Source: Cellulosimicrobium cellulans
GTDB taxonomy: Bacteria > Actinomycetota > Actinomycetes > Actinomycetales > Cellulomonadaceae
Length of the DNA stretch: 64,000 nt
Assembly (NCBI RefSeq): GCF_007679345.1
Contig: NZ_VEGH01000002.1
Span: forward strand, 124,001-188,000
Reading direction: 5' to 3'
In this document: positions 349 to 49,106 of the stretch, one piece after another
How positions within the stretch are numbered: position 1 is the first letter of the stretch
Layout of the letters: each line of letters begins with the position of its first letter
The notes under the pieces: generated by a model
Seen by the model: only the letters and a program-made list of their open reading frames with translations
What the model was told of the DNA's origin: nothing
The model's database searches: none
Made by a program: the position numbers and the translations under genes

Positions 349-2493
349 TCAGAGCATGCAGGAGACGCAGCCCTCGACCTCGGTGCCCTCGAGTGCCATC
401 TGCCGCAGGCGGATGTAGTAGATCGTCTTGATGCCCTTGCGCCAGGCGTAGATCTGCGCCTTGTTGATGTCGCGGGTGGTGGCGGTGTCCTTGAAGAACA
501 GCGTCAGCGACAGGCCCTGGTCCACGTGCTGCGTGGCCTCGGCGTAGGTGTCGATGATCTTCTCGTAGCCGATCTCGTACGCGTCGTCGTAGTACTCCAG
601 GTTGTCGTTCGTCATGAACGGCGCCGGGTAGTACACGCGGCCGAGCTTGCCCTCCTTGCGGATCTCGATCTTCGACGCGATCGGGTGGATCGACGACGTC
701 GAGTTGTTGATGTACGAGATCGAGCCCGTCGGCGGGACCGCCTGGAGGTTCTGGTTGTAGATGCCGTGCTCGCGCACCGACTCGGCCAGCTCGCGCCAGT
801 CGTCCTGCGTCGGGATGTGCACGCCGGAGGTGGCGAACAGCTCGGCGACGCGGGCGGTCTTCGGCACCCAGGTGCCCTCGACGTACTTCTGGAAGTACTC
901 GCCGGTCGCGTACTTCGAGTCCTCGAAGCCGGCGAACGCCTGGCCCCGCTCCTTGGCGAGCAGGTTCGAGGCACGGATGGCGTGGTACGCCACCGTGTAG
1001 AAGTAGATGTTCGTGAAGTCCAGGCCCTCCTCGGACCCGTAGAAGATCCGCTCGCGCGCCAGGTACCCGTGCAGGTTCATCTGCCCGAGGCCGATGGCGT
1101 GGCCGCCGCGGTTCGCCCGCTTCACGGACGGCACCGACTCGATGTCGGTCTGGTCGGACACCGCGGTGAGCGCGCGGATCGCGGTCTCGACCGAGCGGCC
1201 GAAGTCCGGCGAGTCCATCGCCAGCGCGATGTTCATCGAGCCCAGGTTGCAGGAGATGTCGCGGCCGACGTGGTCGTACGACAGGTCCTCGTTGAAGGTC
1301 GAGGGCGTCGAGACCTGCAGGATCTCCGAGCACAGGTTCGAGTGCGTGATCTTGCCCTTGATGGGGTTGGCCTTGTTGGCCGTGTCCTCGAACAGGATGT
1401 ACGGGTAGCCCGACTCGAACTGCAGCTCAGCCAGCGTCTGGAAGAAGTCGCGGGCCTTGATCTTCTGCTTGCGGATGCGTCCGTCGTCGACCATCGCGCG
1501 GTAGTTCTCGGAGACGTTCACGTCGGCGAACGGCTTGCCGTAGACGCGCTCGACGTCGTACGGCGAGAACAGGTACATGTCCTCGTTGTTCTTGGCCAGC
1601 TCGAACGTGATGTCCGGGATGACGACGCCCAGCGACAGGGTCTTGATGCGGATCTTCTCGTCCGCGTTCTCCCGCTTGGTGTCGAGGAACCGCATGATGT
1701 CCGGGTGGTGCGCGTGCAGGTACACGGCGCCAGCGCCCTGGCGGGCACCCAGCTGGTTCGCGTAGGAGAAGGAGTCCTCGAGCAGCTTCATCACGGGGAT
1801 GACGCCGGACGACTGGTTCTCGATGTGCTTGATCGGCGCGCCGTGCTCGCGGATGTTGGAGAGCAGCAGGGCCACGCCGCCACCGCGCTTGGACAGCTGC
1901 AGGGCGGAGTTGATGCCGCGCGCGATCGACTCCATGTTGTCCTCGATGCGCAGCAGGAAGCAGGACACGGGCTCGCCGCGCTGCGCCTTGCCGAGGTTGA
2001 GGAACGTCGGGGTCGCCGGCTGGAAGCGGCCGGACACGATCTCGTCGACGAGCTGCGTCGCGAAGGTCTCGTCACCCTCGGCCAGCGCGAGCGCCACCAT
2101 GGTGACGCGGTCCTCGAAGCGCTCCAGGTACCGCTTGCCGTCGAACGTCTTGAGCGTGTACGAGGTGTAGTACTTGAACGCGCCGAGGAAGGTCTGGAAC
2201 CGGAACTTCTTCGAGTACGCGTGCTTGAACAGCGCCTTGATGAACTCCGGGGTGTACTGCGCGAGGACCTCGGCCTCGTAGTACTTGTTCTCGACCAGGT
2301 AGTCGAGCTTCTCCTCGATGTCGTGGAAGAAGACCGTGTTCTGGTTGACGTGCTGCAGGAAGTACTGCCGCGCCGCCTCCCGGTCCTTGTCGAACTGGAT
2401 CTCCCCGTTCGCGCCGTAGAGGTTCAGCATCGCGTTGAGCGAGTGGTAGTCCATCTCGGGCGTGATGGTGATGACCTCGGTCGCGTCGGTCAT
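349..2493 (-). CDS. nrdE: Class Ib ribonucleoside-diphosphate reductase alpha subunit NrdE
   Basis: Catalytic subunit reducing NDPs to dNDPs in the cytoplasm, using electrons from NrdH and a radical from NrdF. The 714-aa product is the usual NrdE length. Visible motifs are SNLCSEILQ with a reducing cysteine, the [10 protein letters not shown] stretch, [18 protein letters not shown], and a C-terminal CVSCML CxxC pair that shuttles electrons. An upstream in-frame extension to 2604 exists. I chose the ATG at 2493 because it overlaps the nrdI stop by 4 bp (ATGA), implying translational coupling, and because [20 protein letters not shown] is a normal NrdE N-terminus. Confidence 0.96.
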
Positions 2494-43072: not shown

Positions 43073-44623
43073 TCAGAGGGCGGTGGCGCGGCGGAGGGTC
43101 ACGAACGAGACGAGCGCCGCGCCCACCGCGACGACCGCGCCCACCGCGGCGGCGTGCTGGGTGCCCGCGTCGAACGCCAGGCGCGCCGACTCCAGGAGCG
43201 CCTCGCCCGTGCCGGCACCGACCTCGCCCGCCACCCGGGTCGCGCCGCCGAGGGTCTCGGCCGCGGCGTGCGCCTGGTCGGTCGTCAGCGTCTCCGGGAG
43301 CGCCACGCGCGCCCGGTAGGTCGCGTTGAGCACCGAGCCGAGGATCGCGACGCCCAGGGTGGTGCCGAGCTCGTAGGCCGTCTCGGAGATGGCGGACGCG
43401 GCGCCGGCCTTCTCCGGCGGGACGGCGGTGGTGATCTGGTCGTTGGTCAGCGTCTCGGCGAGGCCGACGCCCAGGCCCATCACCACGAACGTCACGGCGA
43501 CCGTCGCCGGCGTCGGGACGTCGCCGACCAGGGTCAGGACGCCGTAGCCGACGGCGGCCAGCAGGAAGCTCGACCCGATGAGCACGCCCGGCCGGACGTA
43601 CCGCACCAGCCGCACGGCGAGCAGGCCCGCGGCGACGGACGCGACGAGCCCCGGCAGCAGCACCAGGCCCGCGTCCATCGGGCTGAGCCCGGCGGCGAGC
43701 TGGAGGAACTGGGACACGATCACCAGCAGGCCGGAGAACCCGAGCACCGACAGCAGGTTGGCGGACACCGCGCCGGAGAAGACCGGGTTCGTGAACAGCC
43801 GGACGTCGAGCATCGGGGAGGCGAGCCGCCGCTGCCGCCGGACGAACGCCCACCCCGCGACCAGGCCCACGAGCACCGAGGCGCCGGTGGTCGGCGTCAG
43901 GCCGTGCTCGCCCGTCGCGATGATCGCGTAGACCAGCGGCAGCATGGTCGCGAGCGCGAGCACGCTGCTCCACGGGTCGAGCGGGCCGGGGGCGGGGTCC
44001 TTGGACTCGGGCACGAGCGCCGCGGCGAGCGGCAGCAGCACCAGGAGCACGGGCACGTTGAGCAGGAACACCGAGCCCCACCAGAAGTGGGTGAGCAGCG
44101 CGCCGCCCACGATCGGGCCGAGCGCGGCACCGCCCGCGAAGCCGGACGCCCAGACGGCGATGGCGAGCCGCCGCTGCGCGCGGTCGAGGAACACGTTGCG
44201 GATCAGCGACAGCGTGGACGGCATCAGCGTGGCGCCGAACAGGCCCAGCGCGGCGCGGGCGGCGATCAGCATCGCCGGGCTGGTCGACCACGCCGCGAGC
44301 AGCGAGACGACCGCGAACCCGGTCGCGCCGATCATCAGCAGCCGCTTGCGCCCGACGCGGTCGCCGAGGCTGCCCATCGGGACCAGCAGGCCCGCGAGCA
44401 CCAGCGGGTACGCGTCGACGATCCACAGCAGGTCCGACCCGGACGCGCCGAGCGCGGCCGTGATCGACGGCAGCGCGAAGCTCAGGACCGTGTTGTCCAC
44501 GGAGATGAGCAGCACCGGGAGCATGAGCACGGCCAGCACCGCCCAGGGGCGGACGGGACGGCCGCGGTGCTGGAGCGGCGCCGGGACGGCGGCAGTGGGA
44601 CCGGTGGTGACCGGGGCGGACAT
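43073..44623 (-). CDS. MFS drug exporter (DHA2 family, 14 helices)
   Basis: A 516-aa transporter. The N-terminal half shows VDNTVLSFALPSITAALG, WIVDAYPLVLAGLLVPMGSL and GDRVGRKRLLMIG, the DHA2 motif A and D1 pattern, and ASGFAGGAALGPIVGGALL is motif C. About fourteen helices. The start is the ATG at 44623 (MSAPVTTGPT) rather than the ORF extension into the divergent regulator. It is likely a multidrug or antiseptic exporter (QacA/EmrB type) controlled by the divergent TetR. Confidence 0.92.
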   Translation of the reverse strand: MSAPVTTGPTAAVPAPLQHRGRPVRPWAVLAVLMLPVLLISVDNTVLSFALPSITAALGASGSDLLWIVDAYPLVLAGLLVPMGSLGDRVGRKRLLMIGATGFAVVSLLAAWSTSPAMLIAARAALGLFGATLMPSTLSLIRNVFLDRAQRRLAIAVWASGFAGGAALGPIVGGALLTHFWWGSVFLLNVPVLLVLLPLAAALVPESKDPAPGPLDPWSSVLALATMLPLVYAIIATGEHGLTPTTGASVLVGLVAGWAFVRRQRRLASPMLDVRLFTNPVFSGAVSANLLSVLGFSGLLVIVSQFLQLAAGLSPMDAGLVLLPGLVASVAAGLLAVRLVRYVRPGVLIGSSFLLAAVGYGVLTLVGDVPTPATVAVTFVVMGLGVGLAETLTNDQITTAVPPEKAGAASAISETAYELGTTLGVAILGSVLNATYRARVALPETLTTDQAHAAAETLGGATRVAGEVGAGTGEALLESARLAFDAGTQHAAAVGAVVAVGAALVSFVTLRRATAL

Positions 44624-44664
44624 GACGACCTCGTTCGTTTCGTACGTGCGGACCGACGGAACTG

Positions 44665-44680
44665 TACCGTCTGGACGGTA
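44665..44680. promoter_or_regulatory. TACCGTC-TG-GACGGTA operator between MFS and TetR genes
   Basis: A perfect 16-bp inverted repeat with 7-bp arms lies in the 85-bp divergent gap, 42 bp from the MFS start and 29 bp from the TetR start. This is the classical layout of a TetR repressor controlling both promoters. Confidence 0.8.
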
Positions 44681-44708
44681 AAGCGTCACGGCCGGTACGG
44701 TCATTCCC

Positions 44709-45227
44709 ATGTCCGCGACCCGCGACCGCCTCCTCGACGCGTTCGAGGGCCTGCTGATCGCGCACGGCCCGCGCGCCGCCACGCTGGACGCGGTCGCCGC
44801 GGCGGCCGAGGTGTCCAAGGGCGGGCTGCTCTACCACTTCCCCAGCAAGGCCGCGCTGGTCCAGGGCCAGCGCGAGCGCCTGGCGGGGCTCGGCGAGGCC
44901 GACGTCGCCGCGATGCGCGCGGCGCCCGAGGGCGCGAGCGAGTACTACCTGCGCGAGTCCCAGCAGTCCGGCGGGCCGCTCGACCGCGCGCTGATCGCCT
45001 TCGCCCGGCTCGCGGAGGAGGCGGGCGGCGACGCCACCGCCGTCCTCGACGACCTGCGCCGGCACTGGTTCGAGGCGCTGGCCGACGAGCTCGGGGACCC
45101 GGCGCTCGCCCACGTGGTCCAGCTCGTCGGCGACGGCATGTACTACAACGCGGTCACCGGGGTGCGGGACGACACCGCGCTCGCCGACGCGCGCGCGGTG
45201 CTCGGCCGGCTGCGCGGCAGGGCCTGA
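44709..45227 (+). CDS. TetR-family repressor of the divergent MFS exporter
   Basis: A 172-aa regulator with HTH LLDAFEGLLIAHGPRAATLDAVAAAAEVSKGGLLYHFPSKAAL-type N-terminus, then a helical ligand domain. Divergent to the MFS gene and separated from it by a perfect palindrome; it probably represses both genes until a transported compound binds. A strong hairpin terminator follows at 45249. Confidence 0.92.
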   Translation: MSATRDRLLDAFEGLLIAHGPRAATLDAVAAAAEVSKGGLLYHFPSKAALVQGQRERLAGLGEADVAAMRAAPEGASEYYLRESQQSGGPLDRALIAFARLAEEAGGDATAVLDDLRRHWFEALADELGDPALAHVVQLVGDGMYYNAVTGVRDDTALADARAVLGRLRGRA

Positions 45228-45695: not shown

Positions 45696-48600
45696 ATGAC
45701 GACCTCAGCCCTCACGACGCCCTCGCCCGCGGACACCGCGGGCGTGCGCTCCCCCGCGGGTCCCGCGCCCTACGCCGAGACCCCGGAGGCGGTGCTCGCC
45801 GAGCTGCGCAGCACCCCCGCGGGCCTCCGCGAGACGGACGCCGCGCGGCGCCTCGCGGAGCACGGCCCGAACCGGCTGCCGGAACCGCCGGGGAGGAGCT
45901 GGCTGCGCCGGCTGCTCGGCCACTTCGACGACATCCTCATCTACATCCTGCTCGCCTCCGCGGTGCTCAAGGCGCTCCTCGGCGACTGGATCGACTTCGC
46001 CGTCATCCTCGCCGTCGCCGTGATCAGCGCCGCGCTCGGCTTCCTGCAGGAGGGCCAGGCCGAGCGGGCGCTCAAGGGCATCCGGACCATGCTGTCGCTC
46101 GACGCCCAGGTGCGCCGGGACGGCGAGTGGCAGGTGGTCGACGCCGACTCGCTCGTCCCGGGCGACGTCGTGCGCGTGCGGTCCGGCGACCGCGTGCCCG
46201 CCGACGTGCGGCTGATCGAGTCCACCAACCTCCAGGTCGAGGAGGCGGCCCTCACCGGCGAGTCCGTCCCCGCGAGCAAGCACGTCGAGGCGGTCGGGCC
46301 CGACGCCGGCCTGGGCGACCGCGCCTCGATGCTCTACTCCAGCACGATCGTCACCGTCGGCACCGGCACGGGCGTCGTCACCGCGACCGGCGGCGGCACC
46401 GAGATCGGCCGGATCCAGTCGCTCATCGCGGACGCCTCGGACGACCTCGACACCCCGCTGTCGCGCAAGCTGGCCCAGTTCGGCAAGACCCTGTCCCTGG
46501 GCATCCTCGGCATGGCCGCGTTCATGCTGGTGGTCGGCCGCGTCATCCACGACTGGGACGTGCCGGAGCTCATCTCGGCGGCGATCGGCTTCGCGGTGGC
46601 CGCGGTGCCCGAGGGTCTGCCCGCGCTGGTCACGGTGACCCTGGCGCTCGGGGTGCAGCAGATGGCGCGGCGCAACGCGATCACCCGCAAGCTCACCGCC
46701 GTCGAGGCGCTGGGCTCGGTGACCACCATCTGCTCGGACAAGACCGGCACCCTCACGAAGAACGAGATGACGACGCGCACCGTCGTCACCGCCGCCGCGA
46801 CCTACGACGTCGAGGGTCTCGGCTACGCGCCCGAGGGCAGGATCACCCGGGACGGCGAGCACGCACCGCTGGGCGCGCACCCGGACCTCGCGGCCCTCGT
46901 CGCGACCGCTGCGTCCGCCAACGACGCCCGGATCGTCCAGGACGGCGGCCTCTGGAAGGTCGTCGGCCAGCCGACCGAGGGCGCCATCGCGACTCTGGCC
47001 CTCAAGGCCGGCGTCGACCGCGCGGGCGTCGAGCGGGTCGCGGTGCTGCCGTTCGAGTCCGCCACGAAGTACATGGCCACGCTCGACCGCGTCCCCGGCG
47101 CCGGCACCCGGATCCGCGTCGTCGGCGCCCCGGACCGGCTGCTCGACCGGTGCAGCCACCAGCGCGCCGCCGACGGCGGCACCGAGCCGCTGGACCGCGC
47201 CCGGTGGGAGGCCGTGATCGACGGGCTCGCGTCCCAGGGCCTGCGGACGCTGGCCGCCGCGGAGCGCCCCGTCGCGGACGGCACCAGCACCCTCGACGTC
47301 GCGGACGTCGAGGAGGGCCTGGTGTTCCTCGGCATGTTCGGCATCGTGGACCCGCCGCGGCCCGAGGCCGTGCAGGCCATCGCGGACTGCCACCGCGCCG
47401 GCATCCGGGTCAAGATGATCACCGGCGACCACGTCGGCACCGCCACCGCCATCGCCCGCGAGCTCGGCATCGCCGCCGCGGACGGCGACGTGCACGCGCT
47501 CACCGGCGCCGAGCTCGAGGCGATGACCCAGGAGCAGCTGCGCCAGCGGGTCCGCGACGTCGACGTGTACGCGCGCACCAGCCCGGAGCACAAGATCCGG
47601 ATCGTGCGGGCCCTGCAGTCGCACGACGAGGTCGTGGCGATGACGGGCGACGGCGTGAACGACGCCCCCGCCCTCACCCGGGCCGACATCGGCATCGCGA
47701 TGGGCATCAAGGGCACCGAGGCCACCAAGGAGGCCGCGGACATCGTCCTGGCGGACGACAACTTCGCGACCATCGAGCGGGCCGTCGAGGAGGGGCGGCG
47801 GATCTACGACAACATCGCGAAGTCCGTCGTCTTCCTGCTGCCCACCAACGGCGCGCAGTCGCTCGTCATCCTGGTCGCGGTGCTGTTCGGCCTGACGCTG
47901 CCGCTGTCCCCGGTGCAGATCCTGTGGGTCAACCTCGTCACGGCCGTCACGCTCTCGCTCGCGCTGGCGTACGAGCCGGCCGAGCCCGGCGTGATGTCCA
48001 GGCCGCCGCGCGCACCCGGAGGGTCCGTCATCTCGGGCCGGTCCCTGCGGCAGGTCGTCATCGTCTCGCTGCTCATCGGCGGCGCGACCCTGGCCGTGTT
48101 CTTCATCGAGCGCGCCCGCGGCACCGACTACGCGGTGGCCCAGACGACCGCCGTCACGATGCTCGCGCTCGGCCAGCTCGCGTACCTGTTCAACTGCCGG
48201 TTCCTGGGCGAGTCCAGCCTCACCCTGCGCGTGCTGCGCGGGAACCGGGTGGTGTGGACCGCGACCGGTGCGCTGATCGCGCTGCAGATCCTCTTCACCT
48301 ACGTGCCGTTCATGAACGCCTGGTTCGACTCGGCGCCGATCGGCCTGCGGGAGTGGGGGCTGACCCTCGGGTTCGCGATCGTGGTGTTCCTGCTCGCCGA
48401 GGGCATGAAGGCCGTGACCCGGGCGATCGACGCGCGGGGCGCGGCCCGGACCGCCGCCGCGGCGGAGACCGGGGGCGCGCTCCCGGGCGCGCCCGTGCCC
48501 GGGGCCGTGGCGCTCGACGACGCCGCGGCCCGGCTGGCCGAGCTGGTGCACGCCGTCGAGCACGGCGACGAGGTCACGCTCACCCGCGACGGACGCCCGG

Positions 48601-49106
48601 TGGCGCGGATCGTCGCGGTGGCCGGCGCCGCGCGGCGGACCAGCGGCCGGGGGACCGCCGCCGGCGCCACCGTCGCAGCCGAGGTGAGCACGACGGCGAT
48701 CCAGCTGTCGCCCCCGGACGAGTCGGGCGCGAGCCCGGCACCGGAGGCGGGGGCACCGGGCGACGGGCGGCACACGGCCGGCGACGAGACGGTCGGGGCG
48801 TCCGCTCCGGAGGCGCCCGCGGCTCCCCCCGCGTCCGCTCCGGACGTGACCCCGGCGCCCGCCGCGGAGGAGCCCGCACCGGCCGCGCCGACCCGGGTGA
48901 GCACCCGCGCGCCCGAGCCCGGGGCGCCGGCCCCGGCGGCCACGGACGCGACCATCGTCCTCGACCCGGTGCCGGCCGCCGGGCCGGGCCCCGATCCCGC
49001 CGCCGACCCGGAGCGCCCCGACCCGCCGCGGCGCCGGTCCCGGCGGGAGCTCGCCGCCCCGACCGAGCCCCTGGGCGCGGTGCGGCCGGAGACCGACGGG
49101 GACTGA
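45696..49106 (+). CDS. Ca2+-type P-type ATPase with Phd/YefM-like C-terminal segment
   Basis: A 1136-aa protein. Residues ~25-900 form a P2-type ATPase: cation N-domain ([20 protein letters not shown]), [20 protein letters not shown] in the ion-binding helix, phosphorylation site [12 protein letters not shown] (D348), [20 protein letters not shown], and six C-terminal helices. PEGLP resembles SERCA/PMR1 Ca2+ pumps. Then residues ~941-975 read [20 protein letters not shown] followed by [15 protein letters not shown], closely resembling the N-terminal DNA-binding part of Phd/YefM antitoxins. The last ~150 residues are Pro/Ala-rich and disordered. The start is the ATG at 45696, after GGTGGTGAC. 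Confidence 0.88.

Follow-up and report, generated by a model that had tools for sequence, protein, structure and literature searches.

The ATPase gene and its C-terminal extension

The window analysed here, a stretch of 64,000 nucleotides, holds on its plus strand an open reading frame of 1136 amino acids (positions 45,696–49,106) that encodes a type II P-type ATPase. The ATPase core (45,696–48,428, plus strand; amino acids 1–911) carries the motifs PEGLP (residues 305–309), DKTGT (348–352) and GDGVNDAP (651–658), and E1-E2_ATPase, Cation_ATPase_N, Hydrolase, Cation_ATPase and Cation_ATPase_C all score over their Pfam cut-offs; motifs and cation-ATPase domains alike place the protein in type II. 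C-terminal to the last membrane helix, and behind an Ala-rich variable linker (48,429–48,506, plus strand; amino acids 912–937), lies a segment of 38 residues that matches the N-terminal half-domain of Phd/YefM-type antitoxins (48,507–48,620, plus strand; amino acids 938–975). Reading frame, ATPase motifs and Phd-like segment are all found at the positions given in a preliminary description of this DNA. The tail behind the segment contains four conserved islands, all on the plus strand: a basic island, AARRTSGRG (48,627–48,653; amino acids 978–986), one with TTAIQL (48,687–48,716; amino acids 998–1007), one with T-[IV]-V-L (48,942–48,974; amino acids 1083–1093), and a last one (49,023–49,076; amino acids 1110–1127) that is the least conserved of the four. 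Upstream of the pump, window positions 43,073–45,227 encode an MFS transporter (minus strand) and a TetR-type regulator (plus strand), and the DNA of this region is kept in relatives.

The closest solved relative of the pump is the Listeria Ca2+-ATPase LMCA1 (lmo0841; E = 1.4e-149), which aligns with amino acids 31–908, the match stopping at residue 908, ahead of the tail. The M6 aspartate belongs to the Ca2+ site of Ca2+ pumps, but here the NLVND motif of LMCA1 reads NLVTA (window positions 47,931–47,984), with this Asp replaced by Ala, and NLVTA is found in all 30 Cellulomonas places read, the window's copy and 29 others. The cut-offs of the SERCA equivalog TIGR01116 (594.7 against 703.4 bits) and of the PMR1 equivalog TIGR01522 (605.5 against 798.3 bits) are not reached. 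The ATPase had been described as Ca2+-like, which these results make doubtful; with the M6 Asp missing, the label 'Ca2+ pump' would be unsafe. Mycobacterial CtpF is presumably a relative of this pump. A structure model of the full-length protein was poor (mean pLDDT 53.5), and contacts between tail and pump are not readable from it.

Homology and predicted fold of the Phd-type segment

The observation of a Phd-type segment on the pump is real. The NCBIfam model TIGR01552 (phd_fam), with a cut-off of 20.8 bits, is exceeded by the whole protein (30.6 bits) and by pieces of 100 (34.7 bits) and 51 amino acids (36.9 bits). For PF02604, the family against which a check had been proposed, the corresponding scores are 21.8, 26.0 and 28.1 bits (E = 1.7e-4, 8e-6 and 1.8e-6); the match is significant by E-value, but the window's copy lies slightly below the gathering score of 29.8 bits, and the match spans only profile positions 6–42 of 74. 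Both models match all nine members of alignment A2, which holds nine of the 13 fused copies described below. In a search of PDB sequences, the best relative was P1 Phd (E = 0.0018).

As a control, a profile was made from 48 stand-alone antitoxin rows and no fused ones. These rows, from which identical repeats were removed and which exclude the two antitoxins of loci L001 and L002, were picked with the fused profile, so that the choice of rows, though not their letters, depends on the fused segment; chosen by likeness to it, they are a non-random sample. With the stand-alone profile the real tail scored 54.1 bits, whereas shuffles of the same residues (5000 were run and 4798 rows reported, the real tail among them) stayed at or below 10.2 bits. 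The same profile gave 31.0–58.4 bits on all 13 fused copies and at best 1.9 bits on 17 non-fused ATPases. A chance match in Ala-rich sequence is ruled out by the shuffles and the non-fused controls.

AlphaFold, run on the tail with nine sequences, gave a model (mean pLDDT 57.8, pTM 0.27) that is confident only at model residues 31–70 (amino acids 933–972; block pLDDT 80–91), where the segment has the topology strand-helix-strand-strand; the tail beyond it is a low-confidence prediction and lacks helix. The best 20 Foldseek matches of the segment are all Phd, VapB, YefM or RelB antitoxins, none of them at E ≤0.001; the top match, VapB46 (6jqy), has E = 0.013, probability 1.00 and a TM-score of 0.90 on a 43-residue chain. 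VIA-align, with VapB46 and Phd among its best matches, gives Z = 6.7 over 43 aligned residues (rmsd 1.4 Å), which lies below the recommended Z = 8; the solved N-terminal fragments of VapB46 and Phd are 43–58 residues long. The segment is modelled like these solved domains and is predicted to have the Phd-type N-terminal fold, the case for its identity resting on sequence and predicted fold together. What it shares with the N-terminal domains of VapB46, P1 Phd and YefM is a common family (TIGR01552, PF02604) and the predicted strand-helix-strand-strand arrangement.

The Phd/YefM signature that had been read behind the ATPase is a true N-terminal half-domain, which is joined to the pump in frame and retained across a group of related genomes. 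A PF02604 match is present and the segment is conserved rather than free to vary, while NCBIfam, the PDB profile and the predicted fold agree with the preliminary description. That the domain was captured, here from an antitoxin gene, agrees with the homology (TIGR01552, PDB profile, Foldseek, VIA-align and stand-alone profile).

The segment differs from the domains of VapB46, P1 Phd and YefM in standing behind a P-type pump, in lacking both the second half and the basic DNA-contact residue, and in being acidic. Neither the second half of the antitoxin domain nor a toxin-binding C-terminus is recognisable, the profile match ending at position 42 of 74. At DNA-contact position 10, which is Arg in P1 Phd as aligned with the segment and Lys in 47 of the 48 stand-alone rows, every one of the 13 fused copies has Ala or Gly, though these copies, perhaps of one origin and with three identical segments among them, may not be independent samples. 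Over the 38 residues, fused copies carry a net charge of −1 to −3 and stand-alone ones of −2 to +3 (median +1). By its sequence the segment would no longer be an antitoxin, because the second half is unrecognisable, the basic DNA-contact residue is gone and the charge is now negative. Loss of that residue and of the positive charge also favours a putative protein-binding module, one of the options raised earlier, over DNA binding.

Conservation of the fusion in Cellulomonas

A survey of relatives found the fusion conserved in a group of Cellulomonas: 81 genomes were searched, of which 62 gave a match to the pump C-terminus, and for 13 of the 62 it continues into the Phd segment. There were 63 matching places, 30 of which were read to the C-terminus, the other 33 ending by query residue 232 of 247. 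The 30 comprise 12 in-frame fusions (one of which runs off its contig), one broken frame and 17 non-extended places, where the protein stops soon past the last helix; genome G195 has one fused and a second, non-extending match. In the broken case (G196; L050/L117), the pump frame breaks after YEPAE, before the last helices, and the next frame encodes the segment, the islands and the tail; this may reflect either a real frameshift or a sequencing error. An assembly artefact is ruled out by the presence of the fusion in 12 other genomes; the fused loci L068–L075 almost surely come from the same assemblies as eight of those 12 and add no independent cases. No start codon shortly ahead of the segment, from which a free Phd protein might be made, is common to all 13 copies.

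In wider samples, the best 11 places in 200 family genomes were all this pump, as were the best three in 396 order genomes, 104 of which had a match. Among 396 phylum genomes, a sample that did not list the other fused Cellulomonas, four gave a match at E 1e-12, of which just the window's own covers both pump and segment; in one genome of this sample (G240) the match runs to query residue 95 of 141 only beyond a stop codon and includes no Phd match. Plasmids, phages and PHROGs searched with four segments gave no match. Eight long-frame matches inspected as further fusions were rejected, three being ABC-transporter chance matches and five antitoxin-size proteins, four of these lying where long stop-free frames end. 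Two other candidates, L129 and L148, are both stand-alone antitoxins.

The window's upstream DNA is matched by all eight fused loci L068–L075 and by one of three non-fused sisters, and its downstream DNA by seven of the eight and all three sisters; in the eighth fused locus the contig ends within the tail. A separate downstream Phd gene was rejected for the three non-fused sisters and Sanguibacter, where the gap has no profile match above 3.5 bits. In L118, L119 and L120 a convergent ORF of unassigned function, beginning MGLW[EQ]RYK, occupies the tail's place behind the non-fused pump, and the convergent ORF found there in the three sisters is an unrelated one. In a 31-row tree the 13 fused copies are set apart from the other rows by a branch supported at only 30/3. 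A 34-row tree, which has long branches and in which the G196 row is not scored as fused, needs three changes and places three non-fused Cellulomonas pumps and Demequina between fused ones. A single gain of the fusion would be compatible with the pump tree.

Constraint along the protein was estimated as dN/dS from pooled pairwise Nei-Gojobori counts, which carry no error bars and leave G196 out. In six close relatives (twelve relatives in brackets), dN/dS was 0.15 (0.20) for the pump at amino acids 740–905, 0.20 (0.50) for the Phd segment (938–978), 0.00 (0.06) for ARRTSGRG (979–986), 0.09 (0.27) for the STTAIQLxPP island (998–1007), 0.13 (0.48) for the island at 1083–1093 and 0.28 (0.57) for the last island (1110–1127), as against 0.58 (0.82) for the linker (906–937) and 0.62 (0.84) for the long spacer. 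Among close relatives, protein-level change in the segment and the four islands is slow. With twelve relatives the order is unchanged and the contrast smaller, segment and islands still lying below linker and spacer. Mean identity in the linker (amino acids 912–936) is 0.33 over twelve relatives. The tail had been described as long, disordered and Pro/Ala-rich; linker and spacer are indeed variable, but four conserved islands make it more than mere filler.

Three of the four islands carry T-x-x-[ILV], an FHA-type phosphothreonine motif. The island at amino acids 998–1007 holds the best-conserved 8-residue stretch of the tail, TTAIQL being identical in 13/13 copies, and T-[IV]-V-L is likewise present in all 13, so that two T-x-x-hydrophobic motifs (TTAI and T[IV]VL) are conserved throughout. 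Near the end, T-E-x-[LIV] occurs in nine of the 12 copies that extend to their end and is absent in three mutually close relatives. Each tail has 2–4 threonines followed at +3 by a hydrophobic residue, against 0.95–2.52 expected from composition, a modest excess. T-x-x with V or other residues at +3 is given as a motif for FHA binding in M. tuberculosis in one study (PMC5549992). The pump's own genome has six FHA-domain and six protein-kinase matches. In two close relatives (L046 and L047) the DDTVVLAPV island is in tandem duplicate. By eye, R-T-F-G or R-x-P-G stands at the place of AARRTSGRG in a number of stand-alone copies, and this island may also be antitoxin-derived; past the possible R-T-x-G echo in ARRTSGR, the rest of the tail looks unlike an antitoxin.

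Possible roles of the segment and its tail

We propose, with confidence that is evenly balanced, a co-opted pairing or docking module with a phospho-switch tail that would regulate the pump. The proposal builds on the homology, predicted fold and conservation shown above, while dimerisation, phosphorylation, FHA binding and an effect on transport are what we infer from them. A type II P-type ATPase in one Cellulomonas group would have gained a cytoplasmic C-terminal regulatory tail, the folded part of which would be an N-terminal half-domain of the VapB/Phd antitoxin type, retained for pairing or docking with DNA binding and toxin binding lost. The unstructured arm behind it has a basic RR-[TA]-[ST]-x-R site and as many as three sites of the form T-x-x-[ILV]; these would be phosphorylated by Ser/Thr kinases and read by FHA-domain proteins, and kinase signalling would thereby govern the pump's activity, its oligomeric state or its position. 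The antitoxin piece now probably helps to pair or regulate the pump. The Phd N-terminal domain is the dimerisation domain, as stated in PMC4803016; a half-domain without the second helix may not dimerise, although N-terminal fragments of VapB46 and Phd no longer than 43–58 residues have been solved.

The nearest functional parallel is the plant plasma-membrane H+-ATPase (PMC10003446), in which 14-3-3 is recruited by a phosphothreonine of the C-terminal domain and dimers become hexamers. Both are P-type pumps with threonine motifs in a C-terminal tail and a possible tie to oligomeric state, but the plant enzyme is of another pump class, and here the reader would be an FHA protein and phosphorylation is putative. 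In M. tuberculosis, the FHA-bearing ABC transporter Rv1747 has phospho-Rv2623 as its partner, with pT+3 as the FHA determinant, according to PMC5549992. This is an actinobacterial transporter with the pT-x-x-hydrophobic/FHA contact that is putative in our case; the FHA domain is on Rv1747 itself, whereas here the threonine motifs are on the transporter. Only tentatively, an antitoxin-derived dimeriser might join two pumps while phosphothreonines in the tail, set by kinases and read by FHA proteins, switch activity or assembly, as a bacterial counterpart of the H+-ATPase/14-3-3 system. The pump of this Cellulomonas group would then be a P-type ATPase under regulation by a domesticated antitoxin fold.

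It is conceivable, if rather unlikely, that half-domain and tail bind another cell-envelope protein and serve docking or localisation without dimerisation. Such a role would suit Arg 946, which is invariant in the fused-copy alignments and present in only 12 of the 48 stand-alone rows, as well as the conserved linear motifs in the tail, but no partner or neighbouring gene suggests binding of this kind. We give lower credence to a neutral passenger, that is, a functionless antitoxin remnant attached by stop-codon loss or rearrangement. Related pumps in the genus without the segment, a freely varying linker and spacer and the broken pump frame in G196 speak for such a remnant; however, in the six close relatives dN/dS is 0.20 for the segment and 0.00–0.28 for the islands against about 0.6 for linker and spacer, and the hydrophobic pattern is kept at identities as low as 57%.

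A membrane-tethered DNA binder, whose Phd domain would still sit on an operator and couple ion transport to transcription, seems improbable to us. Phd/YefM N-terminal domains do bind operator DNA, as PMC4803016 reports, an R31-like Arg is retained in 11 of 12 fused copies, and the segment is followed by the basic island; yet the segment itself is acidic, in YefM-YoeB both R10 and R31 are essential for DNA binding, according to the same paper, and the R10-equivalent basic residue is gone in 13/13 copies. Phd of E. faecalis with K8, R10 and N14 mutated together also fails to bind DNA, although that report describes this protein as nearer to the AbrB/MazE fold, and its numbering may not transfer (PMC13034048).

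On contig C4, the pump's own genome has at least two ordinary stand-alone Phd-type antitoxins, each adjoining a ParE-family toxin ORF (L001 1182–1800, minus strand; L002 about 1480–2039, plus strand). No toxin gene was found by the pump among the neighbouring ORFs scanned, which encode a TetR regulator, an MFS transporter, an Fe-S protein, an SDR and a GH15 enzyme. That the tail is still an antitoxin and tethers a toxin of the ParE/RelE or VapC type to the membrane is the least probable reading, very unlikely in our view: the genome does have stand-alone Phd-type antitoxins beside ParE-family toxins, and one of the tail islands might serve as a novel peptide for toxin binding, but the PF02604 match stops at position 42 of 74, the scanned neighbours are of other kinds, and by eye the islands are unlike the acidic ends of stand-alone copies.

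We found no description of a P-type ATPase/antitoxin fusion in the open-access literature, most subscription journals lying outside the scope of the search. If a co-opted module with a phospho-switch tail is the right reading, a membrane pump would have taken over an antitoxin fold that no longer performs either of its classical functions, and a candidate phospho-regulated C-terminal domain would be at hand for a bacterial P-type ATPase.
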